Part shown: positions 5,189 through 64,000 of the stretch, piece after piece
Position numbering within the stretch: the first letter of the stretch is position 1
How the letters are laid out: every line of letters starts with the position of its first letter
From: Alkalimarinus alittae
GTDB taxonomy: Bacteria; Pseudomonadota; Gammaproteobacteria; Pseudomonadales; Oleiphilaceae
Length of the DNA stretch: 64,000 bases
Reading direction: 5' to 3'
Assembly: GCF_026016465.1 (NCBI RefSeq)
Contig: NZ_CP100390.1
Coordinates: 434,001 to 498,000 of the forward strand
The notes under the pieces: generated by a model
What the model saw: only the letters and a program-made list of their open reading frames with translations
Told to the model about the DNA's origin: nothing
Database searches by the model: none
Program-made: the position numbers and the translations under genes

Positions 5189-5288
5189 GGCTCGGATCCT
5201 GTTTGTGGCGACCTCTAAAATGCGTATTAGTCACACCAAAGCATAGCAGGATGCGCTTAAGTTGCGCAAAATTTAATCTACTCTTTGC

Positions 5289-6077: not shown

Positions 6078-6088
6078 AACAGGCTCGT

Positions 6089-16000: not shown

Positions 16001-18497
16001 GGAAAGCTCTTCGCAACTCAGTGAGTGCTTCACTGTTGTCATGTTGATTGATATAGGTTGGCAAGTACTCAGCAATCGTCTCAAGTACTTCTTCTGCTTC
16101 TTCTATGAAGATTTCAATGATCTCATCATCAATAAGGTCTTCTTCATCAAAACGAGGAGGTGCAGAAGGGCTACTGACTTCATTGGCAGTATTCGATTCT
16201 ACTGTGTCTTGTTCAGTTTCATCAGGGGCTTTGCCCTCATCAACGGCCTCAGTAGTGCTTGGCGCTTCAGATAGCTCAATTGCAGGTTCTGATTCTTCGG
16301 TATTCGCTACCTTGTTTGCACCTGAGCGCGGCACGCCTGCTAGTACATTAGCTTGATCTATTAAGTCGCTAACATCTTCTGACGGTTGTTTTTCTTTGAA
16401 ATCGTTAACCAATTGAGGAAGCTTTTGGTTAACCGCTTCGAGCAATGGGAATAATGATGCTGTAACCGAGATGGTATTATCAAGAACACGGTTGAGCATG
16501 TTCTCTATTGACCAAGCAAGTTCACCCAGTGTTGCTGCGCCAACTAAGCGACCACTTCCCTTAAGTGTGTGATATGCGCGTCTGAGCTCAACAATGGCAT
16601 CTTTGTGTTGATGATCTTTGACAAATTTAGGGTAAAACTCTGCAATGGTCGCGAGAACTTCTTCTGCTTCCTCGATGAAAATTTCAATTATTTCATCATC
16701 AATAAGTTCTGCATCAGACTCTTTGCTAGGCGCATCAGGTGATAAATCCGAAAGCGTTGTTTCAGCGGAGTCTTCTTTGTTCGAATGGGCTTCGTTGTAA
16801 GTCGGTATTTCGCCTGGCGGAAAGCCTAGCTCAGTTACGCTTTCTTCTGCGACTTGAAGAATAAGCTCATTATCTTGAGCGCCTTCAGTGAGTCGTTCGA
16901 TATAGTATTCAATGCTCGTGATAGCGTCAGCTAATGTGTCTAGCTGCTTCCAGTCAGGTACTGTTTTGTTAGAAAGTAGTGCTTGTTGTATATATTGATT
17001 ACAGGAGTTGATCAGCTCTGCTGCTTTAGTCAGCGGAATTATCTGTAAGCCGCCACGAAGTCCGTCAAGAATAGCAGGCACGTTTTCAATTTCAGCGTGG
17101 TCCCATTGCGAAGCAATAAAGTTAACGATACAGGTTTTCGCTTGTTCCAATCCGTTTCTGGTTTCTCTAAGCACAGCATCATGAGCATTACCGATTTGTT
17201 CTGCAGGTATATCTGACTCAGTATTGGCAGAAAAAGGCGAGGCATGCTCTTCGGTCATACCTGATAGCGTCGCTTCGACATAAAGTAGTGCGCCAGCAAT
17301 GTCCATTAAGGTGATATCTTCAGCTTCACCGCGCTCTTCTATTAATGTTTCAATAACGTCTACTTGTTCTAGAATAACCTTTCTCGGAATACCTAGGCCA
17401 AGTACTGCCATTGTATTGGCCACTTGCTTAAGGCCCGGTAATAGCTCCTCAAGGTCGGCGTTGTCTCTAAACTCACCGCGCACAAATAAATCTAACTGGT
17501 CTTTTATTCTTGCAAGCTCTTCATTCAGCGCTGCAACTACGGATGCAATTGCTTCTTTATCTGGCCCTTGCATTCGCTGACGTTCTTCGTCGACTTCTTT
17601 ATCTTTAGGAAGTGACTGGTTCAGGTGGAATCGCTCGCGAACCTTGTTGACGTGTTCAGTATCGGTACTTGATTTTGCAACATAGTAAAGAAGGTGCTTT
17701 AAAAGGTCTTCAGGCACGGGTTGCAACAGTACATCGACGCTTTCATCAATTAAGCGCTTAATCTGGTGATCTAAATCACGTAGCAGTGTTTTTGTGGCCG
17801 ACGTAAGTTCAAGTTCGTTGTCGTCAAATACATCAATAAATGCGATAGCAACAGACCATAATTGGCCTAGTGCTGTGTTTTGGCAGAGACGCTCCACTCG
17901 TGTTAATACTTTAACCATGTAGGCTGTATTAGCCTTAACTTCGTTGCCTCGAATAACGCCCGCCAAAGAAAACTGAAACATCTGGCGTAATTTACGAAGG
18001 CTGGCCACTACTTTTGGATCTTGTAAACGTTGTACTGCGCCTGCAGGTGTTGCTATACGTGCTGCGGATAGGTCAGGGGTGAATAGAGAGGTGTCAGAAA
18101 GCAGTGACTCGCCTCTAGATGCTCTGAGGTCATTGAGAATCGGAAGAATCACTAATGGCAAGTCTTTACGACCTGCATGTAAATGCTCTAAATAGCTAGG
18201 GAGCTGCAACACCGCTTGCATCAAGACTTCTACCGCTTCCTGAAGGTCAGGAACGGCTTGGTTAAGCAATGCTTGAGCGAGTTTTTCCATTTCTTCCGCA
18301 AGTAATGCGGCGCCATAGAACTCGACCATCTGCAATGTGCCATGCACTTGATGGATGTAGTTCAGGCAGAATCGCATACGAGAAGTGTCTTCTGTATTGT
18401 CGACGTAGGCTTCCAGTGCCTGTCTTGCCTGATTTAGTGTGTCATCTATTTCGCCTCGAACCCAGTCGAGTGCTACATAGTCATGGCTATTACCCAT
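10080..18497 (-). CDS. chpA: Giant hybrid chemotaxis kinase ChpA with eight canonical Hpt motifs
   Basis: This is the central kinase of the Pil-Chp pathway, about 2805 residues. After an N-terminal FimL-like degenerate Hpt (IHQVHGTLQ), eight canonical HTLKG phosphotransfer motifs follow near residues 642, 833, 981, 1326, 1496, 1716, 1912 and 2052. Another degenerate one lies near 1126, where LKTLSQGAQ replaces the histidine motif. Acidic linkers separate them. Then come the dimerisation helices (about 2195), a HATPase domain with N box MLRNALDHGIES and glycine boxes DDGGGIS and SGRGVGMD, a CheW domain, and a C-terminal receiver with LLDIEMPRMDG. P. aeruginosa ChpA has six Hpt plus two Ser/Thr variants in about 2470 residues. 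The start ATG at 18497 has GGAG six bases upstream; an ATG at 18545 would overlap pilK. Confidence 0.92.
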   Translation of the reverse strand: MGNSHDYVALDWVRGEIDDTLNQARQALEAYVDNTEDTSRMRFCLNYIHQVHGTLQMVEFYGAALLAEEMEKLAQALLNQAVPDLQEAVEVLMQAVLQLPSYLEHLHAGRKDLPLVILPILNDLRASRGESLLSDTSLFTPDLSAARIATPAGAVQRLQDPKVVASLRKLRQMFQFSLAGVIRGNEVKANTAYMVKVLTRVERLCQNTALGQLWSVAIAFIDVFDDNELELTSATKTLLRDLDHQIKRLIDESVDVLLQPVPEDLLKHLLYYVAKSSTDTEHVNKVRERFHLNQSLPKDKEVDEERQRMQGPDKEAIASVVAALNEELARIKDQLDLFVRGEFRDNADLEELLPGLKQVANTMAVLGLGIPRKVILEQVDVIETLIEERGEAEDITLMDIAGALLYVEATLSGMTEEHASPFSANTESDIPAEQIGNAHDAVLRETRNGLEQAKTCIVNFIASQWDHAEIENVPAILDGLRGGLQIIPLTKAAELINSCNQYIQQALLSNKTVPDWKQLDTLADAITSIEYYIERLTEGAQDNELILQVAEESVTELGFPPGEIPTYNEAHSNKEDSAETTLSDLSPDAPSKESDAELIDDEIIEIFIEEAEEVLATIAEFYPKFVKDHQHKDAIVELRRAYHTLKGSGRLVGAATLGELAWSIENMLNRVLDNTISVTASLFPLLEAVNQKLPQLVNDFKEKQPSEDVSDLIDQANVLAGVPRSGANKVANTEESEPAIELSEAPSTTEAVDEGKAPDETEQDTVESNTANEVSSPSAPPRFDEEDLIDDEIIEIFIEEAEEVLETIAEYLPTYINQHDNSEALTELRRAFHTLKGSGRMVNATTVGELSWAAEDMMNRIIDGSIVMSHEIGETLSNATELLPDLIEDFKLQQAPRHDVTALIERANLLAQGESALAAESSTTTNDSSLENELDTDSGVDPVLLDIFRSETDTHLETINEFVEAAEAEGEIPFTDAISRALHTLKGSANTAGISPIAAIIVPVEKFVKDARAVNIPANPAVSNMLRQAAVYVRQGIEQLYNDPQHHIDGTEEFLTHLNELSELSFADVSDIEQAQSTTTDPQLISIFLTEGVDILLDAESILDNWRNNPVPGEELEKLVGELKTLSQGAQVAGLEDICEFAELLESAYELIESGDVVANDKFLDTIAHGHEALLSLMDQVAAGLATQPNNKLIAEIKELILNIQADNAVTENEAREKAAAEAEAAEEQTQLEQDALKELDEELEIEIPTLSGFEIDEEIPTLDIEEPASALPQLTAEDSASLLDPELVEIFLEEANDIVNNTGELLQQWSEDTTNPDLLIELQRELHTLKGGARLADISSIGDLSHELETLFEGLTEQRLVAAPSLVTLLFSCHDRLATIIDDVSSGNSGKPAVDLIEQIQQVISTAGEPVATNQVEETTDEQEATTPTSSAESEPLDDTVSAEDSQQAPMDLDPELIEIFLEEANDIIENSGNLIQQWQEDPSQHQTVNELQRELHTLKGGARMAEISAIGDLAHELESLFERIVDGQINTDNHIIDLSLSVHDRLATMVDDIGAGRISQPAPELIGQITAIIDGEPSTTAADESLAELSLEESTDLSEETAEQFIDAVNEEVDAEDALSQLPTLELEEDETDEPNELEIALPDVEAATEEDTPAELEAETLDVEPILSESLDPELVEIFLEEANEIIDNTGELLQSWLEDINDSSHVKELQRELHTLKGGARMAEIGPLGDLAHELETLFEGIVDNGLVVDSSISDLMLACHDKLATMVDQIGSGSAIYPALDLIAAVVALTNGDPVPTPSSKSETSATEEQPVVEAEETTTEPEDESALELEAPTLDEESQSSEQTPVEDEVPSYEISTDDTSEQDFADDLMSIFLDEAREICDAIIDSLDHWSEAPESLNGVVELQRELHTLKGGARLADIDNIGDLADALYDKLEAAIGQNATNNPELIKITSRSTEQLNTMLNELESTGKSSSATDCISAINAITIEADKSVELEAAARDDADDAEILEIFLEEANEILEELDTQLSDWSTDSSNDDFNREIQRLLHTLKGGARLAGLKELGNVSHELESKLIEALEKGDGLNNDLHTMVNQYQDKLNSLVTEVNHRFIALSAEQATPDEHKKPALEQPISENSTDAEQPETAQGATDTQAASVPSTAVSPSTDQQDRVTTTAKKPASQAKQAAKARPAQQETVRVSASLIDDLVNLAGETSITRGRLEQQISDFSFNLDEMVSTIERLREQLRRMDMETEAQVLFRTEKEGVGPDYADFDPLEMDRYSSIQQLSRALTESTFDLLDLRETLADKARDAETLLLQQSRIHTELQEGLMKTRMIPFSSMVPRLRRIVRQISGELGKKAEFDVQNAEGEMDRTVLERMVAPLEHMLRNALDHGIESIEKRKAAGKPEAGNISLSLNREGGDIVLRMKDDGGGISVDVIREKAIKQGLMKKGAPLSNHDILQFIMKAGFSTAEQVTQISGRGVGMDVVASEIKMLGGNISIDSREGAGTTFTVRLPFTVSVNRALMVNTGEDFYAIPLNTIEGIVRVSPYELEEYYKPDAPLYEYAGQQYRLQYLGNVLHSDHKPKLQGQPLPLPVILVRGTDHPIALQVDSLMGSREIVVKSLGAQFSKVPGVSGATILGDGSVVVILDLPALIRADDGRALSNIEHEVETPAAVEQRPTLVMVVDDSVTVRKVTTRLLERNGMDVITAKDGVDAIAQLQDNKPDVMLLDIEMPRMDGFEVASLVRHDENLKDVPICMITSRTGQKHRERAMSIGVNEYLGKPFQEKELLSTIEKLINLS

Positions 18498-18513
18498 AAC
18501 TTCTCCAGTATTT

Positions 18514-19407
18514 CTAATTCTTTTCTGGGCGTCGGATGAACGCAAGAGTATTGTCGCTTGGAACCCGTTCTAAATCAGGGTGTTCCCAGTCGACCATTTC
18601 ACCTTGTCCTAGTACAAGTAATCCACCTGGTACCAGTCTTTCTACCAATCTGCTTAGAATTTCTTTACGTCTCCAACGACGAAAATAAATCAGTACATTT
18701 TGGCAAAAAATTATATTCATCCCATGCATGGGTGCGTTGCCGAGATCTAAAATGTTAACTCTTGCAAAACAAACACGATCTTTAATGGCTGGGATTACTT
18801 CATACCGGCCATCATTGTGTTTGTTGAAATATTTTTCCCGCTGCGTATCTGCAACTGTTACCAGTTTACGCTCGGTATATATCCCGGCTCGCGCTTTTTC
18901 TAGGGCTGGAGTGCTTATATCGGTACCAGTAACACCGTAATAATGCTTGAGCCCTAGCGTATTCATACTTTCACTGAGCAGCATTGCTAACGTATAAGGT
19001 TCTTCACCTGTTGAGCAGCCAACACTCCAAACTTCGAGTGTTGATTTTTTAAGGTTATCGATCGGTCGTGTAAGAACATAGTCTGTTACTAGGTTACAAG
19101 CGTCTATATCTCTATAGAAACGTGTCTCTTGCACCGTAAGCCGATCAACTAACGTAGTCCACTCGATGATTCCGGTTGGGCCGTTAATTACCTTTTCAAA
19201 ATACTCTTGATAACCACTGCAACCAATTTCACGCATTCGTGTGCCTAGGCTAGTTTGCAAAAAGACCTTTCGGCCTATTGGCAAGCTCATACCTGTTCGG
19301 CTCTCCAGTAGCTCTTGCCACTTTCGAAACTGGTCATTATCCATTTCTGGTAATGGTTTCAAGGCCCACCGAGTAGGTTGAGCCTTGTTATTGTAGTCAG
19401 TCATCAT
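18514..19407 (-). CDS. pilK: CheR-type methyltransferase PilK
   Basis: This protein of just under 300 residues is a CheR-family S-adenosylmethionine-dependent methyltransferase that would methylate glutamates of PilJ for adaptation. The SAM-binding motif VGCSTGEEPYTLAM lies near residue 130 and the CheR signature FCQNVLIYF near 235. An all-helical N-terminal CheR domain precedes them. It sits between pilJ and chpA, as in Pseudomonas, with 16 bases to the chpA start. The start is ambiguous (GTG at 19413, ATG at 19407 or 19404); none has a strong ribosome-binding site. Confidence 0.88.
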   Translation of the reverse strand: MMTDYNNKAQPTRWALKPLPEMDNDQFRKWQELLESRTGMSLPIGRKVFLQTSLGTRMREIGCSGYQEYFEKVINGPTGIIEWTTLVDRLTVQETRFYRDIDACNLVTDYVLTRPIDNLKKSTLEVWSVGCSTGEEPYTLAMLLSESMNTLGLKHYYGVTGTDISTPALEKARAGIYTERKLVTVADTQREKYFNKHNDGRYEVIPAIKDRVCFARVNILDLGNAPMHGMNIIFCQNVLIYFRRWRRKEILSRLVERLVPGGLLVLGQGEMVDWEHPDLERVPSDNTLAFIRRPEKN

Positions 19408-19442
19408 ATTCACAACAGAGAATTAAAACCTTACCAACTACG

Positions 19443-21488
19443 CTATGCTGCAGTCTCTGACTCGCCTTCTTCTGGTAGATTGAAGCCTGCTACAGAGCTT
19501 CGAAGTTGGTTTGCCATTTCTGCAAGATTACCGATCGATTTCGCAGTTGCGTTGGTACCTGCAGATGTCTGCGATGTGATCTCCTGGATAACGTTCATCG
19601 TGTTGGAGATGTGGCCAGCAGATGAAGACTGCTGACGTGCTGCGTTAGATATATTCTGGATCAAGTCTGCAAGGTTCATCGATACGTTCTCGATTTCTTC
19701 CAGTGCAACACCCGCATCTTGTGCCAATCGAGCTCCGCGAACCACTTCTGCAGTGGTGTGTTCCATCGATATAACGGCTTCGTTAGTATCGGTTTGGATT
19801 GTTTTAACCAGTGCTTCAATCTGTTTTGTTGCGGCAGATGAGCGTTCTGCAAGACGCTGTACTTCGTCGGCAACAACCGCGAAGCCTCGACCCGCATCAC
19901 CGGCCATCGATGCCTGGATTGCGGCGTTCAATGATAGGATGTTGGTTTGGTCGGCAATGTCGTTGATTAGAGATACGATATCACCGATTTCTTGTGAAGA
20001 TTCACCTAGTCGTTTGATACGCTTTGATGTTTCTTGAATCTGCTCTCGAATCGTGTCCATGCCTCGAATGGTGTTTTGTACCACTTCGGCACCTTTTTTC
20101 GCGATCGCAACCGATCGTTCCGCAACCGCTGATGATTCACCTGCGTTTGAAGATACTTGGTCGATAGAAACAGCCATTTCGTTTACAGCGGCTGATGCTC
20201 CTGCAATTTCTTGAGCCTGGTGCTCAGATGCGTCTGCAAGATGCATCGCTGTTGCTTGCGTTTCTTGTGCTGCAGAAGCAACCTGTACGGCGGTATCTCG
20301 AATAGCCTTAACAAGACCACGCATTTGGTCGATTGCGAAGTTGATAGAGTCAGCGATGGCGCCTGTGAAATCTTCTGTTACCGTGGCTTCTGTTGTCAAA
20401 TCACCATCAGCCAGGTCAGCTAGTTCATCAAGTAGTCGCAAGATTGCGTTTTGGTTTTGCTCATTTTGCTCTGTGGTTGTTTGAAGTCGAGCTTGGCTTT
20501 CACGGAATAGAGATAAACCAATTAGAACGATAACAAGTATTACACCACCCAAAATAATGTATGCAAGCGTAGGGCTGATAGATCGTGATTCTGCCTGTGT
20601 TTGAAACTGGGTAGATAGTGATGTTGTTTCTTTAAGTAGTGCCTGAGAATCTTGGAAGATGTTGTTTGCAGCGGTACGAACCTTAAATAGTTCTGGTGAT
20701 GTTTCTAGAATCGCATCTACGTTTTCGCTGACAAATTCAAACATTTCTGCGATAGCCTCTAGGCCATATATCGCATCTTCATCGTCAACTCGGCTAATGC
20801 CCATGACGTTGTTACCTTCAACCATGCCGTTAAGTACTCGACCAAACAGCTTTGCGTCACGGCCAAATCGGTCAGCGGCGATTACCGCATCTTCATCGCC
20901 CGAAAGTACGTTGTTAACACTTCGTACAATACGTTCTGCAAGCAGTGACTGGCGCTGTGCAACCGCGATCTGATCTGCCGGTGCGTCACCTTCTAATAGA
21001 ATTTGAACAACGTCATCATACTCAACCTGCAGCTGAGGAATGGTCTCGTTAAGTGTTTCGGCAACCAGATGCAAAGATAGTACCGTGTCTTGGTTCGCCA
21101 GGATTTGGTCGGTGTTGTTTTTTACTTCGTTCCAACGTTTTACCACGCCTGTTTCTGAGGCTAGGTCGTTAGGCGGAAGGTTTGTTTCGGCGTTACCTTG
21201 AACGAGTAGGTTTAGCTTGCGCTCAAAGTCATCACGAGACCGTTTAAGTTGATCAAATGCCTCAGCTTTACCACTCGATGCTTCCGATGCGTTTTTGGCT
21301 ATTTCCTGAGATAGTACTCGGAGGTCACCTGCATGGCCGGCATATTCTTTGTCGTGGTTACTATCTCTTACGATGACGAATGATACATACGCAAGAAAGA
21401 GTAGCAGGGCGACCAACACTCCACCTAATCCAAGGAGGAGCGAGTTGTTGCCCTGGCCTGAATTAAACTTTCCAGATTTACTTTTCAT
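19443..21488 (-). CDS. pilJ: Methyl-accepting chemoreceptor PilJ
   Basis: This 681-residue transmembrane receptor feeds the Pil-Chp pathway; in Pseudomonas PilJ contacts pilin and reports surface contact. Membrane segments lie near residues 18-38 and 308-328. The periplasmic part between them has the helical PilJ_N-type repeats typical of this receptor. A HAMP-like region follows, and then the signalling domain, whose hairpin tip contains DIADQTNILSLNAAIQAS with AGRGFAVVADEVQRLAE. The length matches Pseudomonas PilJ (about 682). A GGGAG ribosome-binding site precedes the ATG. The 126-base gap to pilI is longer than the other gaps in the cluster. Confidence 0.92.
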   Translation of the reverse strand: MKSKSGKFNSGQGNNSLLLGLGGVLVALLLFLAYVSFVIVRDSNHDKEYAGHAGDLRVLSQEIAKNASEASSGKAEAFDQLKRSRDDFERKLNLLVQGNAETNLPPNDLASETGVVKRWNEVKNNTDQILANQDTVLSLHLVAETLNETIPQLQVEYDDVVQILLEGDAPADQIAVAQRQSLLAERIVRSVNNVLSGDEDAVIAADRFGRDAKLFGRVLNGMVEGNNVMGISRVDDEDAIYGLEAIAEMFEFVSENVDAILETSPELFKVRTAANNIFQDSQALLKETTSLSTQFQTQAESRSISPTLAYIILGGVILVIVLIGLSLFRESQARLQTTTEQNEQNQNAILRLLDELADLADGDLTTEATVTEDFTGAIADSINFAIDQMRGLVKAIRDTAVQVASAAQETQATAMHLADASEHQAQEIAGASAAVNEMAVSIDQVSSNAGESSAVAERSVAIAKKGAEVVQNTIRGMDTIREQIQETSKRIKRLGESSQEIGDIVSLINDIADQTNILSLNAAIQASMAGDAGRGFAVVADEVQRLAERSSAATKQIEALVKTIQTDTNEAVISMEHTTAEVVRGARLAQDAGVALEEIENVSMNLADLIQNISNAARQQSSSAGHISNTMNVIQEITSQTSAGTNATAKSIGNLAEMANQLRSSVAGFNLPEEGESETAA

Positions 21489-53425: not shown

Positions 53426-53598
53426 GGCGGTATATCAGTGGGTTGTTGTTTCAAAAAATTGTATTAATAATTGCGTATATGAACATGATTGTTAAGGGGC
53501 TGTAAAGCTCACTGTAATGTGCCATTAATAGCCGCTACAAAGTTGCTGTGGTAAAGGCCTTTTCGCATATACTGTGGTATTTAAACTATAAAGCCGAT

Positions 53599-54579
53599 AT
53601 GGAACATGCTGTGATAGAGCCTGGTCAGAAACCCCCGTCTATAAATATTCCATTATGGATGCTGGTAGGGTGCTTGGTGTTGGCAGGGCCTCTACTTTTT
53701 ATTGGAGGACCTGATCATTACTCCGCTCGCCCGGTTAAACTATTGTGGGACCTTGGTCATATACCGCTAATGTTTTGTTTAGGGTTAATATTGATAAAGC
53801 TATTATCAATATTGAGGTTAACGTCCTATTGGTTATTTTTTAGTATTTATCTTTGTGTGATCTTGGTGGTTGCGGTGACAACTGAGTTTATACAAGGCAA
53901 GATTGGTCGCATAGCGAGTATTTCTGATGTCGCGTCTGATATTTGGGGGGCGTTACTGGCTTGGCTTTTTATTGGTCACTACCCACTCGTTAGGCGCTTT
54001 GCTTGGAGGTGTGTTTTTACTGGCGTAGCGATAGGGCTCGGCGCTGTTGTTCTCTCTAGACCTGCAATGGTGTTATACGATGAAGTGTTGGCGCGTGTGC
54101 AATTTCCGCTATTAGCTGGTTTTGAAAGTACTTCTGAGCTGAGTCGTTGGAAGGTTAAGAGCGGTTTAGTGCGTTCGACCGATAGAGCAACCGAAGGGCG
54201 TTATTCTTTAAAGGTGCTATTATTACCAACAGGGTATAGTGGTGTGTCGTTTAGAGATTTCCCTGTTGATTGGCGAGCGTTCGATGTACTACGGTTTGAT
54301 GTGTGGAGCCCTATGATGTCATTACCGATTACAGTGAGAGTGCATGATAAAACTCACCAAGAAGGCGCGCAGGTATATGATGATCGCTTTAACCGGCGCT
54401 ACAGACTGGATAAGGGTTGGAATCGCATTACGATAGACCTACATGAAATCTCACAAGCCCCAAAAGGGCGAACGCTTAAATTGAGTGAGGTCGAAGGGTT
54501 TGGTTTTTTTGGCTATAATCTAGGTTTTAGTGAAACAATTTACCTAGACCAAGTGTTGTTGCTACGTAAAGACAGCTGA
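53599..54579 (+). CDS. VanZ-like membrane domain fused to a carbohydrate-binding-like domain
   Basis: This protein of about 326 residues has a VanZ-like membrane half (about 15-165) with the family features KLLWDLGHIPLMFCLGL and TEFIQGKIGRIASISDVASD. Residues about 185-326 form a soluble domain rich in beta strands (LAGFESTSELSRWKVKSGL, SLKVLLLPTGYSGVSFRDF, ITIDLHEI) that resembles CBM11 or CIA30-type sugar-binding modules. The soluble part is likely periplasmic. I chose the ATG at 53599; a GTG at 53548 would add 17 residues. Neither has a clear ribosome-binding site. The role is unknown; a part in envelope polysaccharide handling is a guess. Confidence 0.68.
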   Translation: MEHAVIEPGQKPPSINIPLWMLVGCLVLAGPLLFIGGPDHYSARPVKLLWDLGHIPLMFCLGLILIKLLSILRLTSYWLFFSIYLCVILVVAVTTEFIQGKIGRIASISDVASDIWGALLAWLFIGHYPLVRRFAWRCVFTGVAIGLGAVVLSRPAMVLYDEVLARVQFPLLAGFESTSELSRWKVKSGLVRSTDRATEGRYSLKVLLLPTGYSGVSFRDFPVDWRAFDVLRFDVWSPMMSLPITVRVHDKTHQEGAQVYDDRFNRRYRLDKGWNRITIDLHEISQAPKGRTLKLSEVEGFGFFGYNLGFSETIYLDQVLLLRKDS

Positions 54580-55208: not shown

Positions 55209-55520
55209 TTAGGCTCGCTCAGAAGCGAAATTAAGCGGTTGGTTTAGTACTTTTTCATATAGAAAGGTTAGTGCTTCTTTGGCTTGGTTTATTTTTGCTC
55301 TCGAAAGGCCTATTTGGTTAGCGAGATAACCTAGAAACTCTTTAACGTTGTTCTCTGGTAATGATGCAGGGTTCTTCAAATCATTAAAGAATATATATTG
55401 AGTAATCCAGTGCTGATAAGTTTGTTCGGTGCGGATATTGAATTGTTGCTTTCTAACGATCTTTCGAACTTGCTGTAACAACCCTGATTGGCTCTGATCT
55501 AATGCCTCTGCATTATCCAT
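55209..55520 (-). CDS. Stand-alone phage integrase N-terminal SAM-like domain protein
   Basis: This 103-residue protein consists of the N-terminal core-binding (SAM-like) domain of integron or phage tyrosine recombinases: LLQQVRKIVRKQQFNIRTEQ, YQHWITQYIFFND and VKEFLGYLANQ. Then it ends; no catalytic domain with the Arg-His-Arg-Tyr residues follows on either strand. AAGGA precedes the ATG, so it is probably translated. It may be a remnant of an integrase gene or a repurposed DNA-binding domain. No attachment sites or integron repeats were seen around it. Confidence 0.78.
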   Translation of the reverse strand: MDNAEALDQSQSGLLQQVRKIVRKQQFNIRTEQTYQHWITQYIFFNDLKNPASLPENNVKEFLGYLANQIGLSRAKINQAKEALTFLYEKVLNQPLNFASERA

Positions 55521-56840: not shown

Positions 56841-58958
56841 TTAGTGAATCGGCAGGCGAACCTCAAAACAAACGCCACTTTTATCGTCAAGATTATAGGC
56901 TTCGACGTTGCCGCCATGATAATCGGTAATGAGCTTAACGATTACTAATCCTTGTCCCATATGACCTTCTTCTTTTTGGTCGCCTCTCACTGAAATAAAT
57001 GAACTGAAAATCTCACGCTGCATTTTTTCTGGAAGTAATGGCCCTTCATTGCTCACCGATAACGAGTAGTAACGAGGGTGAGAGTTGAGGCTGATCGAAA
57101 TCTTGCCACCCTTCGGGGTAAAATCTTTGGCGTTATCGACGAGCTTGTCCATTAACTGGGCAATTAATTCGGGGGCGCCAGATAAGGGTCTGGCTTCTGG
57201 GCTTACTTGGATTTCAATTAGGTGGTGAGTGAGCAAGCATTTAAATGCTTCTCCAGTGCTTTGCACGACATCTGTTAGGTTAAATGTTTCTTGTTCAGTA
57301 TTCACAATACTTTTTTCGAGTCTTGAGGCTTCACTCATTGACTGGATGATGAGGCTAAGTCGCTTAGTGCCTTCATCTGCTCTTTGTAAGTAGGTGCTCA
57401 CTTCGTCTAAATGATCCGCCACAAAAAGCTGCTCGTTAATTGATAGGTTCTCTATTGAGGAACGAACGATCGCAAGAGGGGTTTTGAGCTCGTGAGAGAG
57501 CTTGCGTGAGAAATTTTCAAGGTATTCTGTGTAGTTGGTCACCTCTTGGTGCATCGCTGCAAAGCTACGTGAAAGGTCGCCTAATTCGTCTTGCGTGCGT
57601 GAGGGTAAGAATGCCTGCTTGATACGGCCATCATCACTGATCGAGGTATCAATTTGGTTACGCAGCCGAGTGACTCGCCATGATAGTAGTGATGAAAAGC
57701 CTAACAACACCAACACAATTAATAGGACGACCGAAAAACTGATCGCAATTAATTTAACCATTGCGCTATCTGAGAGTGAGGCAATCGCATCAGTGGTTTG
57801 CTCTACCAGAATGACGCCCTGAGCGGTTGAGGCTATAGGGTTTGAGGTTGTGGGGTTTGAGGCTGACACGTTGAGCGTAATAGGGTATGCGGCCGCAATA
57901 ATCGCCTGATGATTAATGGGGTCATGAAACCAGTCGGTGGTAGCCTGATTCTTTAATGCTGTCCGTATGGCCTGGTTATTACGCTGACCTGAACGAGTTT
58001 GAGGCTCGGCATCTGCTGGCTTTTGCTGGCCTAAGACGGCTTTAAACAATGAGAGTAATATTTCGCGCGCGAGCGAGTCGAACTCACCTTGCTGCCAAGG
58101 CGCGCTATAGGTCTCTTCGTTTGTTTGCCCAACTTGCGCGATGATCCAGTGATTTTTGTCTACAAAGCTGATGCGGGTGAACGCTCGTTGATAGGGCTCA
58201 ATAAGAGATTCTAATTCGTTGAGGCGGTGGATCACGATAGGTAGCCTCCTGTGTTCTTCTGGAGGTGTAACGCCAGACCAAATTGGCTGAGTTGATAAGT
58301 CTGAGGCCTTGGCTATGGTAAAACCAAACCCTTCTTTAATGCGGGATAACGGCATCTCAAGCTCGATTTGATAGCCTTTGTGAGTATCCTGCCAATATCC
58401 TCGTAACGCATTATCTTTAATAAAGTCTCTGCTCCCGCTGCGCGTGAGTAAATCAACGGGCCCTGGTGCAATGGGGCTAGTAAGGGTGTCGATTACTTGG
58501 CCTTCAGATGTCGAGAATTTTAGTATTAAGTGATCGCTATTCTGCATATCCCGTTTGCCGGGATTTCTGTAACGAGTGTTCGCGGTATCGACCTTAATAA
58601 ATAGATAAAAGCGCTGTCCGTGAACACCTGCTTGATAGCTGACCGATAGGTCCTGATTGGTGCTGTTAAGGTGATTTAGATCTTCAGCAGCGGCTCTCCA
58701 GTCGTCGAAATACCCGTCTAAAATAATCGGCGCAGGTAACTTGAAGGCATAAATAGGTTGGTAGCCTTTTACCGGGTGGTCGGGCACGTCAATAGTAGTT
58801 GTCGATAACTGTCTGGCAATCAGTTTTGCATGTTGGCTTAGGTTTGTTAGCTGGTTTTGCCGTAAAGTTTGCTCCAACTCCTGTATGAACAGATAGCCGG
58901 CCCAAGGGATAAGCAGGGTGAGTAAGCTAATCAAAAATAGTTGATGGCGTAATCTCAA
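56841..58958 (-). CDS. pdsS: Proteobacterial dedicated sortase system histidine kinase PdsS
   Basis: This 705-residue kinase matches the architecture of the kinases found only beside class GN sortases. It has a membrane helix at about 7-25, a large periplasmic part (about 26-400), a second helix at about 405-428, HAMP, HisKA with the His near residue 489 in SRKLSHELKTPLAI, and a HATPase domain with LMDKLVDNAKDFTPKGG. The periplasmic region contains APIILDGYFDDW, the opening motif of CBM9-like sugar-binding folds, so it may sense a glycan. It starts with TTG at 58958 after AAGGGGG. It follows the regulator gene and is divergent from the sortase genes. Confidence 0.9.
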   Translation of the reverse strand: MRLRHQLFLISLLTLLIPWAGYLFIQELEQTLRQNQLTNLSQHAKLIARQLSTTTIDVPDHPVKGYQPIYAFKLPAPIILDGYFDDWRAAAEDLNHLNSTNQDLSVSYQAGVHGQRFYLFIKVDTANTRYRNPGKRDMQNSDHLILKFSTSEGQVIDTLTSPIAPGPVDLLTRSGSRDFIKDNALRGYWQDTHKGYQIELEMPLSRIKEGFGFTIAKASDLSTQPIWSGVTPPEEHRRLPIVIHRLNELESLIEPYQRAFTRISFVDKNHWIIAQVGQTNEETYSAPWQQGEFDSLAREILLSLFKAVLGQQKPADAEPQTRSGQRNNQAIRTALKNQATTDWFHDPINHQAIIAAAYPITLNVSASNPTTSNPIASTAQGVILVEQTTDAIASLSDSAMVKLIAISFSVVLLIVLVLLGFSSLLSWRVTRLRNQIDTSISDDGRIKQAFLPSRTQDELGDLSRSFAAMHQEVTNYTEYLENFSRKLSHELKTPLAIVRSSIENLSINEQLFVADHLDEVSTYLQRADEGTKRLSLIIQSMSEASRLEKSIVNTEQETFNLTDVVQSTGEAFKCLLTHHLIEIQVSPEARPLSGAPELIAQLMDKLVDNAKDFTPKGGKISISLNSHPRYYSLSVSNEGPLLPEKMQREIFSSFISVRGDQKEEGHMGQGLVIVKLITDYHGGNVEAYNLDDKSGVCFEVRLPIH

Positions 58959-59024
58959 GATGAAGCCCCCTTAATCATGGGGGGCGTGTCGGCGTCTACA
59001 ATGGCGCTAATGATGATAGAACAA

Positions 59025-59726
59025 TTAAGCTTCATCGAGTTTCCAGCGATAACCCATGCCGTAGGCTGTTTGAATACTATCAAAGGAATTATCAATTGCT
59101 GTAAATTTTTTACGAATGCGTTTGATATGTGAGGTAATGGTATTGTCATCTAATACCGTGTTGGCAGCATCCATCAATTGAGTCCGATTTTTTACGTGCC
59201 CTGGGTGCTTTATTAACGCGTGAAGCATCCAAAACTCTGTAACGGTTAGGTCAATGAGGTGAGATTTCCAGGTAACGTTCATGCGGTCAACATTAACCGC
59301 TAATGAGCCTCGAGAAAGCTGTTCTTCATGCTTTTGTACCTTGCTTTGCATGGCTTCTACGCGCCTAAAAAGCGCGACAATTCGCGCCATCATATGAGGT
59401 AACGTAATATCTTTAGTGAGATAGTCATCGGCGCCTAGTTTAAGGCCGAGAATTTGATCAAGTTCGCTATCCCTTGCTGTCAGAAAAATCATCGGTAGTT
59501 CTGGCGACTTAACTCTGAGCTGGCGACATATCTCAAAACCACCCTCAACGTCATCACCGAGCCCAACGTCAATAATAACAAGATCTGGCAGGGCATTTTC
59601 AAAGTGTGCTAGCGCATCAAATCGATTGTCAAAGTCCACCACGTCATAACCGTACTTTGTTAAGGCATCACAATAGTTGGCGCGTATCGCGGGTTCGTCT
59701 TCTATGATGGCTATTTTTCGTTTCAT
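59025..59726 (-). CDS. pdsR: Proteobacterial dedicated sortase system response regulator PdsR
   Basis: This 233-residue OmpR-type regulator has a receiver with E9, D10, phospho-acceptor D53 (LVIIDVGLGDD) and the Lys of YLTKDITL, and a winged-helix domain (about 140-230) with LTVTEFWMLHALIKH and the recognition helix TITSHIKRIRKKF. Its place between the kinase and the divergent sortase target identifies it as the dedicated regulator of this system. It presumably binds the 299-base gap to control the target and sortase. The kinase starts 66 bases downstream. Confidence 0.9.
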   Translation of the reverse strand: MKRKIAIIEDEPAIRANYCDALTKYGYDVVDFDNRFDALAHFENALPDLVIIDVGLGDDVEGGFEICRQLRVKSPELPMIFLTARDSELDQILGLKLGADDYLTKDITLPHMMARIVALFRRVEAMQSKVQKHEEQLSRGSLAVNVDRMNVTWKSHLIDLTVTEFWMLHALIKHPGHVKNRTQLMDAANTVLDDNTITSHIKRIRKKFTAIDNSFDSIQTAYGMGYRWKLDEA

Positions 59727-60025
59727 TGTTTATTGGGCTCTTGGTTTCAAGTGCGGCTTAATCTAAAAAATTGCTTGCTAAGGTGATGATTATTAAAGCA
59801 TGACTGAGCCTGTTCGACTATCCCCGAGAGAAGGTTTGCCATAATTCATCACATTTCACCTTAACATCTTCACTTTTCATCCGCTGAATCGACGTTTTTG
59901 ATTGCTGTAATGAGTCCTAAGAATACAAATCAAAATATGAAGCGGTTTGTCACGCCCGTCTTCGGGGCAATGACAAACGTTTCTGAATGGATACTAGCAA
60001 AACGTCATAATAAGAGGGCTGGAAA
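59727..60025. other. Divergent promoter region of the sortase system
   Basis: This gap separates pdsR from the target gene. It contains ATTTCACC (59853-59860) and a second TTCAC (59869-59873) with a 14-base period, a possible tandem site for the OmpR-type regulator, but the match is short. A plus-strand reading frame inside it overlaps the target gene in another frame and is not supported. Confidence 0.4.
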
Positions 60026-62416
60026 ATGGGACTTATCGTTACGGGTGATCAATTCGGAGTTGAGCGTAGCAAAGATGACGCTATTCAGGCGAATGTTGTA
60101 GCAAATTGGCGGAATGCTAGGTTGCAAGACATGCTTATGGTTGTCGCTTTATTACTGTTGCTATTGGGCTATAGTCTTTCGGCGCAAGCATTTACCGCGA
60201 GGGATACGGGGAATGAGGTAACCCTAGATCAAGTGGAAAGCGGCCGTCTGCTATGGAAGCCGCTAGTGCAAGACTTACACGCGGGCGCTACGAATACGGC
60301 AACGAACGTCATGCGATATAAGCCCGCGACGCTGCTAGAAGAAGATGTGACGATTAATGTGTCGGGTTTAATCTTAACGGCTACGCTAAAGCAGCGTTTT
60401 AAGAATGATAGCAATGAGTGGCTTGAAGCCGTTTATGTCTTTCCATTACCTGAAAATGCAGCCCTTTATCAGATGGAAATGAGGGTGGGCGACCGGCTAA
60501 TCAAAGGCCAAGTGAAGGAAAAATCCCAAGCTAAAAAAATCTATCAGAACGCAAAAGCAGAAGGAAAAAAAGCCGCATTAGTGGAGCAGCACCGGCCCAA
60601 CTTATTTACCAATAACATAGCCAATATTCCGCCTGGAGAAACCATCGAAGTGATGCTCGAATACAATCAGGTGATTCGTTATGACCAAGGTGAATTTGAA
60701 TTGCGCTTTCCCTTGACGACTACGCCTCGTTATTTCCCTGGGGTGGCGGTTTCCGAAAATGGCCAGCGTGAAAACGTATCAATGGATGAAGCGTCGGCTG
60801 AAACCATTGCCCACCATATCAACCTGCAAAACCCTTCAACGGCTATTGATACATCGACAGGGTGGGCGTTACCGACGACTCAGGTGGCAGATGCTCATCA
60901 GGTCTCACCGTTTACTATTCCTCTAGCGTCGATGCCTGTTGATACGCATAAAGTCACACTAACCGCAGAAATAGATGCCGGCTTTCCTATCGACGGTGTG
61001 AGTAGTTTAAGCCATCAGGTTGAGGTTCTGCCAGCAAAGAGCGGATATCAGATTGCACTCAAGGATGGAAAGAGCCCTATGGATCGTGATTTTGTGTTGA
61101 CTTGGAAACCTCAGGTTGGCGCAGAACCCAAAGCCGCGTTGTTTACTGAAGAGTGGCAAGGCGAGCGCTATTCGTTATTAATGGTGGTGCCGCCGCAACA
61201 ACTACCAGAAGAAATGGTGTTGCCGCGTGAGCAAGTATTTGTCATTGATACCTCTGGCTCTATGGGCGGCGAATCTATTCGACAAGCAAAAGCATCGCTA
61301 GAAAAGGCATTAATGAATCTTAGATCAAGCGACCGCTTTAATGTGATTGAGTTTAATAGCTATACCCATTCATTGTTTCAACATTCGGTGCCTGCGAGCC
61401 AAAGCAACATAAATGAGGCGCGTAATTACGTTAAAAACTTACAAGCCGACGGGGGAACTGAAATGGCCTCGGCTTTAACTGCAGGGTTCTCCGGTTCTAT
61501 TTATCCTGGCTATCTTCGTCAGGTAATTTTTATGACAGATGGTAGTGTTGGCAATGAACGTGCGCTTTTTAATCAAATTGAGCGCGAACTGGGTGACTCA
61601 AGGTTGTTCACGATTGGCATTGGCTCAGCACCGAACAGCTACTTTATGAGGAAGGCCGCTGAGTTTGGTCGAGGTAGCTTTACCTATATCAGTAACCTAA
61701 ATGAAGTCGAGGTTAAGTTAAAAAAACTATTTGATAAATTAAGGGCGCCTGTATTGAGTAATTTGGCGATGAACCTTGTTGATGATCGTGGGGGAGTGGC
61801 GACGACGGGCAAAACAAACCCAGCGGAAAGCTACCCAAATAGAATCAGTGACCTTTATTTGGGCGAACCACTGATACAGGTGATTAAGCATACTAAAAAC
61901 GGATCAATGATTAATTTGTCGGCTAACAGTGTAGGGATGTATCAAAGCCAAACGCCACTTTGGACGCAGTCTATTAATCTGCAGGGCGCTAAGCAAGCAA
62001 AAGGTATCGCAACTTATTGGGGGCGGCAAAAAATTGAATCATTAATGGATTCAGGTTCTCTTGTCAGTGATGCTGATAATCAAGCGCAAGCTAAAGTGCG
62101 TCTGCGAGATCAGGTGATTGAAGTTGCTCTAAAGCACCACTTAGTCAGTCCTTATACTAGCTTAGTCGCTGTTGAAGAGGTTATTTCACGTCCAGAGGGG
62201 GCAGGGCTAAACAAAGCGGCTGTTCCACAATTGTTACCTAAAGGAAGCACGCAGAAAATGGCCCGCTTTCCTCAAACCGCGACCTCATCTCAACTGTATA
62301 TGTTGGTTGGCTTTTTAACCTTGATGCTGGGGATGGGAATGATTTTCCTGAATAGCGCTAGAGCGCCTTTTAGTAAGCAAATGATGGGTGCTCAATCCAG
62401 TGCGATGAGCCAGTAG
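60026..62416 (+). CDS. Marine proteobacterial sortase target protein (VIT-VWA)
   Basis: This 796-residue exported protein is the substrate of the adjacent sortase. After a signal-anchor (about 36-54, ending SAQA) comes a VIT domain (about 75-200, like inter-alpha-trypsin inhibitor heavy chains) and a VWA domain with the metal site DTSGSMGG starting at residue 408 and MTDGSVGNE downstream. The C-terminal sorting signal has FPQTA at residues 748-752 (62267-62281), a hydrophobic helix of about 18 residues and a basic tail beginning NSARAPFSK. The motif differs from LPxTG but fits the LPxTA-like signals of this system. The tail is unusually long. GAGGG and GGAAA lie upstream of the ATG. Confidence 0.93.
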   Translation: MGLIVTGDQFGVERSKDDAIQANVVANWRNARLQDMLMVVALLLLLLGYSLSAQAFTARDTGNEVTLDQVESGRLLWKPLVQDLHAGATNTATNVMRYKPATLLEEDVTINVSGLILTATLKQRFKNDSNEWLEAVYVFPLPENAALYQMEMRVGDRLIKGQVKEKSQAKKIYQNAKAEGKKAALVEQHRPNLFTNNIANIPPGETIEVMLEYNQVIRYDQGEFELRFPLTTTPRYFPGVAVSENGQRENVSMDEASAETIAHHINLQNPSTAIDTSTGWALPTTQVADAHQVSPFTIPLASMPVDTHKVTLTAEIDAGFPIDGVSSLSHQVEVLPAKSGYQIALKDGKSPMDRDFVLTWKPQVGAEPKAALFTEEWQGERYSLLMVVPPQQLPEEMVLPREQVFVIDTSGSMGGESIRQAKASLEKALMNLRSSDRFNVIEFNSYTHSLFQHSVPASQSNINEARNYVKNLQADGGTEMASALTAGFSGSIYPGYLRQVIFMTDGSVGNERALFNQIERELGDSRLFTIGIGSAPNSYFMRKAAEFGRGSFTYISNLNEVEVKLKKLFDKLRAPVLSNLAMNLVDDRGGVATTGKTNPAESYPNRISDLYLGEPLIQVIKHTKNGSMINLSANSVGMYQSQTPLWTQSINLQGAKQAKGIATYWGRQKIESLMDSGSLVSDADNQAQAKVRLRDQVIEVALKHHLVSPYTSLVAVEEVISRPEGAGLNKAAVPQLLPKGSTQKMARFPQTATSSQLYMLVGFLTLMLGMGMIFLNSARAPFSKQMMGAQSSAMSQ

Positions 62417-62427
62417 GGGGAGTGAAG

Positions 62428-62988
62428 ATGAAAAAGTGGATTCTGTTGATGACTGTGGGTGGGCTTTTATTTGGGATGGGAGGCGCTATTCAACTTAAAG
62501 CGGTTGCCGCACAATGGATGCTTGAATATGCTTGGCAAAATACGCTTGATCACCATCAACGACAGAAACCATGGCCTTGGGCTGATATATGGCCTGTTGG
62601 TAAGTTACAGCTAGGCTCCGCTGACTCGATGATAGTCCTTGATAGTGTGAGTGGGCAGGCATTGGCATTTGGACCAGGCCGAGTGCCAGGCACAGGGGGA
62701 ACAGAGCACAAAGGCTTGACGGTCTTGGCTGGACATCGAGATACACATTTTAGTTCGCTTAAAACACTAAAAATAGGTGATGAAATATCTGTGCAAGACA
62801 CCAATGGTGTGTGGCGCGTTTATACGGTCTCTGAGATCGACATTATAAATACTGAAACACACATGATCGATCTCACAGAGGATACACAAGCCTCGCCACA
62901 GTTGATGCTTGTGACCTGCTACCCGTTTGATGCGATTCAAGCGGGAGGGCCGTTGCGCTATGTGGTCACGGCTAATGAAGCTGTCTAG
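62428..62988 (+). CDS. Class GN sortase
   Basis: This 186-residue cysteine transpeptidase would cut the target at its FPQTA signal and join it to an amine acceptor in the envelope. The N-terminal membrane helix (about 4-24) is followed by the sortase barrel with His103 in LAGHRDTHFSSL, Cys164 in LVTCYPFD and Arg177 in PLRYVV, the complete catalytic set. I chose the ATG at 62428 because GGGGGAG lies at ideal spacing; a GTG at 62422 is too close to it. It starts 12 bases after the target gene, so the two are co-transcribed. No other sortase or target is present. Confidence 0.94.
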   Translation: MKKWILLMTVGGLLFGMGGAIQLKAVAAQWMLEYAWQNTLDHHQRQKPWPWADIWPVGKLQLGSADSMIVLDSVSGQALAFGPGRVPGTGGTEHKGLTVLAGHRDTHFSSLKTLKIGDEISVQDTNGVWRVYTVSEIDIINTETHMIDLTEDTQASPQLMLVTCYPFDAIQAGGPLRYVVTANEAV

Positions 62989-63000
62989 CGTAGGGGGATA

Positions 63001-64000
63001 TTAGGGCGAGCTCATCGTTATCTGCTGTTTTGCCAACTGCCCTAGGGTTTGAATCGCATCTTCTCGCTCAGTTGTCCAACTGTTGGCATAACTGATCCGG
63101 ATAGAATGAGGGTATTTTTTCGGGTCCGATGAAAATATTTCACCCGGCGCGATTAAGATGTGATGCTCACGCGCTTGCTTGTAGAGTTTGGTGGATGCGA
63201 TACCTTTTGGGAGTTGGATCCAGGCGACAAACCCCCCTTGAGGCGATGACATGCGAGTCCCCTCAGGGAAGTGAAGCGAAATGAGGTCTGCGAGTCGATC
63301 ACGCCGCTGGCGGTAAGCTTCTCGCGCTAACCTAAGGTGGCGATCATATCCGCCGCCGGCCAAAAATTCTGCGACAGCCATTTGAGGTAAACGGAAACTG
63401 CCGGTGCTGCTGAGGAATTTCTGATACTCAATGAGTTTGAAGTATTTCCCCGGCATGACCCAGCCAATGCCTAGTTGCGGCTCCAAGGTTTTAGACACAG
63501 ACGAACAGAGCAATACTTGGCCTTTAGAGTCGAATGCTTTAAGTGCTTTTGGGCGTTGCGAGCCATAACCAAGATCGCCATAAATATCATCTTCTATGAG
63601 GGGTACATCATATTGGTAGATGAGATCGAGTAACGCTTGTTTGTTTTCGTCGGGCATCAGCGCGCCAACCGGATTACTAAAGCAGGGGATACTCAGCACA
63701 ATGTTAATCGGCCATTGTTCAAAGGCTAGCTTTAGTGCCTCAATGCTCATCCCATGCTCGGCGTTAGAAGGAATCTCAATGGCTTTAAGTCCTAGCGCCT
63801 CTATGAGTTGCAGCAAACCATAGTAGCTCGGCGTCTCAACGGCCACTATATCGCCTGGTTTGCTAAGCGCCCTTAGGCAAAGCCCTACTGCTGCCTGACA
63901 CCCTTCAGATATCACAATGTCTTCGGGTGACACTAATATGCCTGCATCAATAGCTCGTCTGGCTAATTGACGCCTTAAAGGATCACTTCCTTTGCCTGAG
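63001..64000 (-). CDS. PLP-dependent aminotransferase / MocR-type regulator, 5' part beyond the window
   Basis: The reading frame is open from 63001 to the window edge, so the start lies outside. The visible 333 residues are a fold-type I aminotransferase domain: DIVISEGCQAAVGLCLRAL, SIPCFSNPVGALMPDENK, PLIEDDIYGDLGY and the PLP-lysine in SSVSKTLEPQLGIGWVMPG. The upstream codons (GSDPLRRQLARRAIDAGILV) match MocR/PdxR proteins just before this domain, which have a GntR-type DNA-binding N-terminus. That part cannot be seen, so a plain aminotransferase remains possible. It converges on the sortase gene with a 12-base gap and no terminator. Confidence 0.82.
   Translation of the reverse strand, partial: SGKGSDPLRRQLARRAIDAGILVSPEDIVISEGCQAAVGLCLRALSKPGDIVAVETPSYYGLLQLIEALGLKAIEIPSNAEHGMSIEALKLAFEQWPINIVLSIPCFSNPVGALMPDENKQALLDLIYQYDVPLIEDDIYGDLGYGSQRPKALKAFDSKGQVLLCSSVSKTLEPQLGIGWVMPGKYFKLIEYQKFLSSTGSFRLPQMAVAEFLAGGGYDRHLRLAREAYRQRRDRLADLISLHFPEGTRMSSPQGGFVAWIQLPKGIASTKLYKQAREHHILIAPGEIFSSDPKKYPHSIRISYANSWTTEREDAIQTLGQLAKQQITMSSP

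Follow-up and report, generated by a model that had tools for sequence, protein, structure and literature searches.

The proteobacterial dedicated sortase system (TIGR03784, TIGR03785, TIGR03787, TIGR03788 and TIGR03789) is represented by models in NCBIfam, and its sortase-target pair is described in passages of Haft et al. 2011 (PMC3237569). The function of class GN sortases in Gram-negative bacteria is still called unknown in a passage of a 2023 paper (PMC10581121); among the papers listed by our searches of open-licence PMC full texts, none described experimental work on such a sortase or the CBM9-like sensor. For the question of what a sortase does in cells lacking the thick Gram-positive wall, a system of one enzyme and one substrate offers the cleanest case. 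Here, we analysed a window of 64,000 nucleotides from Alkalimarinus alittae (positions 434,001 to 498,000 of contig NZ_CP100390.1), in which positions 56841-62988 hold four open genes in the place and orientation proposed by the initial annotation, with PdsS and PdsR (sensor kinase and response regulator) divergent from a VIT/VWA target and its class GN sortase. This four-gene kit is of an already known kind, to which our analysis adds a likely architecture for the kinase sensor, the precise sorting signal and a relative in which comparable cargo is paired with a different enzyme. The locus is probably a dedicated cassette of one sortase and one substrate, controlled by its own two-component system.

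The curated NCBIfam cut-offs are passed by the sortase, the target and the regulator, so the TIGR03784, TIGR03788 and TIGR03787 identities given in the initial annotation stand, whereas the kinase, at 600.2 bits against 612.2, falls 12 bits under TIGR03785. The same annotation took the whole proteobacterial dedicated system to be present, which is right for kinase, regulator, target and sortase but not for PdsO (TIGR03789), absent at the locus. Its label "proteobacterial" fits the Proteobacteria hosts but is too narrow for the named loci (the best 80 of at least 545 confirmed, which therefore lean to close relatives of the query), since Nitrospirota are among them, as are two loci placed in Myxococcota. 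All five genomes examined in the genus, that of the window included, have the four genes in this order, which is therefore not a product of chance.

The sortase (62422..62988, plus strand, 188 aa) may start at GTG 62422 or at ATG 62428, the proposed start, which is equally good. Its assignment to class GN was borne out by profile search, with 197.5 bits for TIGR03784 (cut-off 158.25), compared with scores of 71.9, 67.9 and 40.5 for the SrtD, class D and class E models, respectively. A hydrophobic stretch read from the sequence forms a putative N-terminal membrane anchor (62437..62484), followed by the class-GN motif KPWPWADxWPV (62566..62598), whose W46, W48, A49 and D50 are invariant in an alignment of 30 sortases that includes the window's own. 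The complete catalytic triad expected by the initial annotation, namely His105 (62734..62736), Cys166 (62917..62919) and Arg179 (62956..62958), is likewise invariant in 30/30. In the sortase tree of the 80 named loci (the best of at least 545, from which records near the window may be left out), the window's sortase groups only with L032, on a long branch; L032 and relative G372 are the same record and are therefore not independent.

Five bases upstream of the sortase ends the gene for the target, a VIT/VWA protein of 796 aa (60026..62416, plus strand, as are all of its features; TIGR03788 772.1 bits, cut-off 551.65). It begins with a predicted signal peptide with a long N-region (60026..60190, AQA|FTA, read by eye), followed by a VIT domain (60344..60664; PF08487, residues 107-213, E 5e-37) and a VWA domain (61235..61705; PF13768, residues 404-551, and PF00092, 404-560). 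The latter carries the MIDAS metal-site motif DxSxS (61247..61261), with alignment positions D349, S351 and S353, together with T419 and D446, invariant in 48/48. The C-terminus bears a three-part signal consisting of the motif FPQTAT (62267..62284), a hydrophobic membrane stretch (62285..62350; a helix in the AF2 model) and a weakly basic end, supported by an alignment of 35 tails. Cleavage is predicted between T (62276-62278) and A (62279-62281), a position that we take from sortases in general. Among the 77 targets at named loci (best 80 of at least 545), 76 define the consensus (aromatic/Leu)-P-x-T-A-T, in which frequencies at positions 2, 4, 5 and 6 lean upward because the pattern itself restricts those letters; L056 does not fit it, and a looser pattern takes all 77. 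Marinobacter (17) and Microbulbifer (8) are over-represented in the tail set, and with each lineage counted once, 38 rows remain, of which 32 have P and 31 have TAT.

Among 3,883 ORFs of at least 100 aa at the 80 named loci (best of at least 545), the strict motif plus a hydrophobic stretch near the C-terminus occurs in 51, every one a sortase-adjacent target (the strict pattern recovers 51 of the 77 targets); the bare motif adds a single non-target ORF. Genome-wide, a profile of the 35 tails, which includes the window's own and whose reach was gauged without a planted second tail, gave four matches at E<=10, with the target's signal at E 3e-12 and no second tail better than E 0.5. TIGR01167 gave eight matches at E<=10, the target alone being over the cut-off (E 0.09), which is weak support because this model also passes its cut-off in 9/14 control genomes. 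PF04203 matches one protein in the whole genome at E<=0.001, this sortase. The claim of a single target thus agrees with one PF04203 sortase and one convincing signal, and a reading with many targets was not supported. Another genomic VIT/VWA gene (match C1:1330060-1331712), preceded by a MerR-like gene, was discarded as a second target, its ORF having by eye neither export signal nor sorting tail, and a third VWA match (264439-265014) has no sorting tail by eye. Overall, the interpretation given in the initial annotation is supported: another sortase class and many targets were both looked for, and neither was found.

Sortase and target also keep together among relatives. A GN sortase match (E<=0.001) was present in 30 of 58 related genomes (the window's own included), with a target adjacent in all 30, at HMM-edge gaps of 36-168 bases; 29 of these targets exceed the model cut-off and the other (G377) is a contig-edge fragment. 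Three named loci appeared to lack a target: in L086 and L109 the contig piece starts at the sortase, and L111 was rejected as a case of a sortase alone, as an LPKTGT tail adjoins and part of the remainder is masked N.

In the proposed mechanism, the target would be a Sec substrate that stays anchored in the inner membrane through its tail. The sortase Cys would then attack the T|A bond in FPQT|ATS, as expected from the family and from the catalytic residues present, and the Thr carboxyl would be passed to an envelope amine, a step that would release the target from its anchor and leave it attached in the envelope or at the surface as an adhesin-like protein. The acceptor is quite plausibly an amine-bearing lipid such as phosphatidylethanolamine; peptidoglycan diaminopimelate is a tentative candidate, and release by water or another acceptor takes the remaining share. 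A fuller version of the wall-linked scheme, in which the diaminopimelate amine is the attachment point of the target and the complex is kept at the wall by OmpA-domain partners, for example PdsO, appears somewhat unlikely. It is favoured by SrtD and class D being the nearest sortase profiles and by the presence, in several lineages, of an OmpA-domain gene just upstream of the target. PdsO itself adjoins the target in Shewanella L067 (288.6 bits) and in L099 (157.4; cut-off 152.2), L042 scores just below (148.0), and two Nitrospirota loci (L036 and L087) encode a different OmpA-domain protein, which has a membrane stretch at its N-terminus. Sub-cut-off PdsO-like genes (107-128 bits) take the same place in four genomes from the family to which the window belongs (G375, G394, G399 and G404). 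Against it, the window's operon has no such gene, and none of the 58 relatives' genomes has PdsO over the cut-off of 152.2. An OmpA lipoprotein 4.2 kb downstream (C1:501206-502051) was considered in place of PdsO and rejected, scoring 52.3 bits against that cut-off of 152.2. Its homologues (E<=1e-20), found in 19/58 relatives, lie about 6 kb or less from the sortase in congeners and several others, and elsewhere far from it or in genomes without a sortase, and the lipoprotein was therefore left out of the system.

Less probable still is that the sortase acts as a protease only, cutting the membrane anchor and letting water resolve the acyl-enzyme so that the VIT/VWA protein is freed to the periplasm or medium. 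Such a role would suit the gene neighbourhoods, where no third gene accompanies target and sortase at every one of the 80 named loci (best of at least 545), the widest other cluster (neighbours within 9 kb grouped by blastp with single linkage, many contigs being short) reaching 39 loci, and where the presence of PdsSR varies. However, known Gram-positive sortases are transpeptidases. The product of the related rhombosortase pathway, moreover, carries an amine-linked group according to a passage in PMC6219818, which leaves open whether rhombosortase itself makes the bond.

Returning to the cassette with transfer to an envelope amine, its regulation would come from the divergent pair. PdsR (59025..59726, minus strand) is an OmpR/PhoB-type response regulator with 379.3 bits for TIGR03787 (cut-off 335.7), the next best being CreB at 189.1. 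The region between PdsR and the target (59727..60025) contains a block, AATTCATCACATTTCA (59843..59858, plus strand), identical in all five congeneric intergenic regions and matched once in the window at up to two mismatches, which is a candidate regulator site. Promoter-like sites in a scan showed no excess over shuffles (7 vs 8.9), terminator-like sites numbered 11 vs 6.1, and neither kind was used. Under fixed score and distance limits with the minus strand demanded, PdsSR is divergent upstream in 38 of 77 target loci and missing in 30 of the 68 that could be judged, leaving 9 (named loci, best 80 of at least 545); of the 30, L102 has the regulator only, and in L084 the opposite strand carries a weakly similar pair. 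On the sortase tree this trait needs 11 changes, at least four forced by well-supported branches. PdsSR is therefore a module outside the system core. That the pair does not control the target operon at all but is a neighbouring two-component system with another regulon, as those absences and changes might suggest, is improbable given its divergent position in 38/77 target loci, its retention in 5/5 genomes of the genus and the conserved block between PdsR and the target.

The kinase (56841..58958, minus strand, 705 aa, TTG start) matches HisKA and HATPase_c of Pfam and spans TIGR03785 throughout (1-703/703); although formally sub-threshold, it is called PdsS by position and length, the next-best family reaching 148.9 bits. 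The predicted phospho-acceptor is His489 in SHELKTP (57492..57494, HisKA match). Its periplasmic sensor appears to comprise a CBM9-like part (58272..58754; AF2 model with a mean pLDDT of 85.1, from whose strands the bounds are taken) and a less surely modelled Cache-like part (57795..58220; Foldseek match to WalK model 9a5d, 1.8e-5), both with approximate bounds. A profile of 37 PdsS homologues matches CBM9 7nwn (E 1.6e-4), and Foldseek matches for the CBM9-like part include 4jpq (3.5e-7), 7nwn (3.1e-6) and 1i82 (4.8e-6), a remote likeness of 10-12% identity; the same list contains NxrC of nitrite oxidoreductase (7b04, 1.9e-4), a haem-binding protein. At E<=1, Pfam CBM9_1 matches 7/37 homologues (best 9.8e-5), Cache_WalK 9/37 and dCache_1 4/37; Cache_WalK and dCache_1 do not match the window's own PdsS at that threshold, nor did CBM9_1 match it. 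PdsS likely senses through these two domains. Its CBM9-like domain would bind a ligand in the periplasm, most likely a saccharide or a compound resembling one, and the signal would pass through the Cache-like domain, a HAMP-like part and the kinase core to PdsR, which, being of CreB/PhoB type, may act on the divergent promoter to raise the target-sortase operon.

The window may be compared with several known systems. With the proteobacterial dedicated sortase system it shares the class GN sortase, the adjacent VIT/VWA target with a C-terminal signal, the divergent kinase and regulator and one target per genome, but it differs in having no PdsO at the locus, a kinase 12 bits below cut-off and the motif FPQTAT. 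Class D sortases and the LPxTATN signal (NF058671, NF033746 and NF058670) are next best (71.9 and 67.9 bits, with a weak tail match of 19.6), far under cut-offs of 140, 165 and 32, and the window's host is Gram-negative. CreB/CreC supplies the second-best profiles for the regulator (189.1 bits) and kinase (148.9), under the Cre cut-offs (273 and 356), and the CreC match spans kinase residues 374-704, excluding the sensor. The AF2 model of the target best matches the solved structure of inter-alpha-inhibitor heavy chain 1 (6fpy, E 9.1e-36, TM-score 0.68 normalised by the solved chain), sharing the fold and VIT plus VWA with MIDAS, although identity is about 15% and that chain is a human plasma protein, which is joined by its C-terminus in an ester link to chondroitin sulfate without a sortase. 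It is conceivable, if doubtful, that the target is a bacterial counterpart of these heavy chains, its C-terminal carboxyl being transferred by an enzyme to an envelope molecule that bears sugar or amine groups, be it a glycolipid, lipopolysaccharide or exopolymer, with PdsS sensing the same kind of saccharide via the CBM9-like domain; if so, glycan supply would switch on glycan-linked adhesin display.

Finally, rhombosortase with GlyGly-CTERM (TIGR03902/TIGR03501) also uses a three-part C-terminal signal, with an unrelated, rhomboid-type enzyme and a different motif. In G381, a genome of the same family with no GN sortase match, a true rhombosortase (104.7 bits, cut-off 84) has as its neighbour a related VIT/VWA protein whose tail matches GlyGly-CTERM (16.7 bits, cut-off 15.5), an arrangement that hints at equivalent jobs for both enzymes; at 243.6 bits against the target-model cut-off of 551.65, the VIT/VWA protein belongs to a sister family and is not the same cargo. 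A rhombosortase is also encoded elsewhere in the window's genome (C1:3455635-3456081, 124.2 bits, cut-off 84), and a rhomboid neighbouring the locus was rejected as one (33 vs 84 bits). The secretin GspD (E<=1e-100, a threshold that may miss divergent GspD, with genome size as a confounder) was detected in 45/56 sortase-positive vs 178/313 sortase-negative genomes of the class (Fisher p 0.001). The type II secretion system was nevertheless rejected as a general partner, and a route through it like that of VesB may not be general, because 11/56 GN-sortase genomes lack GspD at this threshold. The results yield concrete handles, namely an exact peptide, a sensor of sugar-binding type and a relative with related cargo beside rhombosortase, the product chemistry of whose pathway has already been measured in another bacterium.

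The four-gene sortase locus (window positions 56841-62988; the host genome is 4.25 Mb in a single contig, C1, of which the window is C1:434001-498000) comprises two divergent gene pairs, a histidine kinase with an OmpR-type regulator (minus strand) and a VIT/VWA target with a sortase (plus strand). All four genes were named by NCBIfam, and their Pfam domains are consistent with these names, confirming that the sortase system reported in the initial annotation is real and rightly named. The sortase (188 residues) matched TIGR03784 with 197.5 bits (cut-off 158.25) and the profiles assigned it to no other sortase class, which upholds its placement in class GN; the target (796 residues) reached 772.1 bits for TIGR03788 (cut-off 551.65) and the regulator 379.3 bits for TIGR03787 (cut-off 335.7). 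The kinase, PdsS, is the only one of the four that lies formally just below its threshold (TIGR03785, 600.2 vs 612.2 bits), although its alignment spans the entire model and the next family reaches 148.9 bits. A MocR-like regulator gene (63001-63933, minus strand) is truncated by the window edge, its full ORF having 478 residues.

Genome-wide searches bear out the further claim of a single target. PF04203 gave one match in the whole genome at E<=0.001. A six-frame search limited to E 10, with a profile built from 35 tails of targets (one of them from the window itself), recovered the target at 3.0e-12; the three remaining matches had E values of 0.52, 2.6, and 2.9. The general LPXTG model gave eight matches at E<=10, of which the target alone exceeded the cut-off (16.3 vs 15.9 bits, E 0.09); since 9 of 14 control genomes likewise yield matches over that cut-off, this result adds little. 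The genome's second VIT/VWA protein (G000:C1:1329964-1332258, plus strand; positions 3965-6259 of sequence piece L127), encoded downstream of a MerR-like gene, showed by eye neither export signal nor tail and is apparently cytosolic.

Of the 369 genomes from the class, 56 have a TIGR03784 match at E<=0.001 (48 over cut-off), each a single one. Among 58 relatives, a number that counts the window's own genome, a GN sortase match is present in 30 and a target over cut-off in 29; in the thirtieth sortase genome (G377), the target is a fragment at a contig edge. Target and sortase are adjacent in all 30, with 36-168 bases between HMM edges. Besides its adjacent pair, relative G407 has an extra weak sortase match (C6:23976-24338, 70 bits to TIGR03784). 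The named loci are the 80 best among 545 confirmed, and in 77 of them a target ORF lies beside the sortase; two of the other three pieces start at the sortase, and L111 keeps the target tail by a masked stretch. The kinase-regulator pair is divergent at 38 of these 77 target loci and absent in 30 (two of which have a partial or otherwise placed two-component set), and upstream sequence is too short in nine. On a tree of 81 sortases, presence of the pair needs 11 changes, at least four of them forced by well-supported branches. Therefore, the core consists of target and sortase, to which regulation is added as a module. The intergenic region of the window contains a 16-base block identical across five congeners, a candidate regulator site whose TTCAY repeats resemble the CreB site, TTCACN6TTCAC.

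Position 1 of the sorting motif in 76 tails is Y (31), L (16), F (11), W (9), or M (4), and the later positions are P (68), T (67), A (72), and T (73), counts to which the tail search pattern contributes, since it allows only certain residues at positions 2 and 4-6. Our reading of the putative signal is (aromatic or Leu)-P-x-T-A-T; among known signals, the LPxTATN model comes nearest (19.6 bits vs cut-off 32). When ORFs 100 residues or longer from the same best 80 of 545 loci were taken as a control, the strict motif with a hydrophobic stretch at the ORF end was found in 51 of 3,883, all of them targets; without the stretch requirement, 52 ORFs were found, 51 of which were targets. G replaces T at position 4 in nine of the 76 tails (L052, L073, L074, L077, L080, L081, L105, L106, and L110), which would put a different residue at the presumed cleavage position.

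The AlphaFold2 model of the target (pLDDT 85.9, pTM 0.85) has inter-alpha-inhibitor heavy chain 1 as its nearest structural match (6fpy, E 9.1e-36), and PARP4, ITIH4, and ITIH1 were on top by sequence profile. The MIDAS residues do not vary among the 48 aligned targets; thus, metal-dependent binding in the fashion of an adhesin is likely. For the kinase, a profile of 37 sensor regions hit PDB entries of CBM9 type (7nwn, E 1.6e-4; 1i82, 0.012). At E<=1, Pfam CBM9_1 was found in seven of the 37 homologues and two Cache models in nine and four, and none of the three matched the window's own kinase. The AlphaFold2 sensor model (mean pLDDT 85.1, pTM 0.75, the Cache-like half being weaker) retrieved CBM9-type structures first (4jpq, 3.5e-7; 7nwn, 3.1e-6; 1i82, 4.8e-6), followed by a WalK model (1.8e-5). 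We conclude that the kinase has a CBM9-like domain linked to a Cache-like one between its two membrane helices. A saccharide would be the natural guess for the ligand; NxrC of nitrite oxidoreductase was likewise among the structural matches.

PdsO, an OmpA-like protein, was over cut-off in none of the 58 relatives (own genome included). A PdsO-like gene (107-128 bits) lies directly upstream of the target in four same-family genomes (G375, G394, G399, and G404), and PdsO over cut-off adjoins the target in Shewanella loci L067 and L099. In Nitrospirota, a different OmpA-domain gene occupies its place directly upstream of the target (L033, L036, L037, L043, L078, L087, L090, and L110); those of the encoded proteins that were read carry a membrane stretch at the N-terminus, and the two scored (L036 and L087) are by score unlike PdsO. 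Downstream of the window's sortase, genes for an OmpA lipoprotein and a rhomboid protease (G000:C1:501203-503729; L129:5204-7730) stay near the sortase in congeners and Marinobacter loci. Elsewhere in the window, a 103-residue ORF (55209-55520, minus strand) matching integron integrase positions 1-86 of 315 (66.6 bits vs cut-off 265) is probably a remnant or lone N-terminal domain, and a VanZ-like part is fused to a weak CBM_11-like part (53548-54579, plus strand). A chemotaxis-type hybrid kinase of 2821 residues with ten Hpt stretches (9007-21488, minus strand) adjoins CheB-, CheR-, and PilJ-type genes, an arrangement like that of type IV pilus control.

According to Haft et al. 2011 (PMC3237569), bacterial VIT/VWA proteins have GlyGly-CTERM, PEP-CTERM, or LPXTG tails, those with LPXTG adjoining the strictly Gram-negative sortase TIGR03784. 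We find that such a swap of sorting enzyme occurs within the window's own family: genome G381 has no GN sortase match, and a related VIT/VWA protein there (L159:520-3420; G381:C1:2618019-2620919; 243.6 bits to TIGR03788, below that model's cut-off) ends in GlyGly-CTERM (16.7 bits vs cut-off 15.5) beside a rhombosortase gene (104.7 bits vs cut-off 84). Homologues in G410, G376, and G390 have Gly-rich C-terminal tails by eye, for which the GlyGly model gave no match. VesB is described in PMC6219818 as cut by rhombosortase, carrying a glycerophosphoethanolamine-type modification, and reaching the surface. By analogy, the acceptor onto which the GN sortase transfers its target may be a lipid amine of similar kind; GspD was not found at E<=1e-100 in 11 of 56 GN-sortase genomes, which counts against a full analogy. 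The questions of acceptor and ligand are now cast as testable predictions. The window system is a further example of a type already present in NCBIfam and in publications. Class GN sortases are assigned to 'halotolerant proteobacteria' in PMC10581121, whereas the range of the named loci (best 80 of 545) is broader, comprising Pseudomonadota, Nitrospirota, and two loci in Myxococcota.
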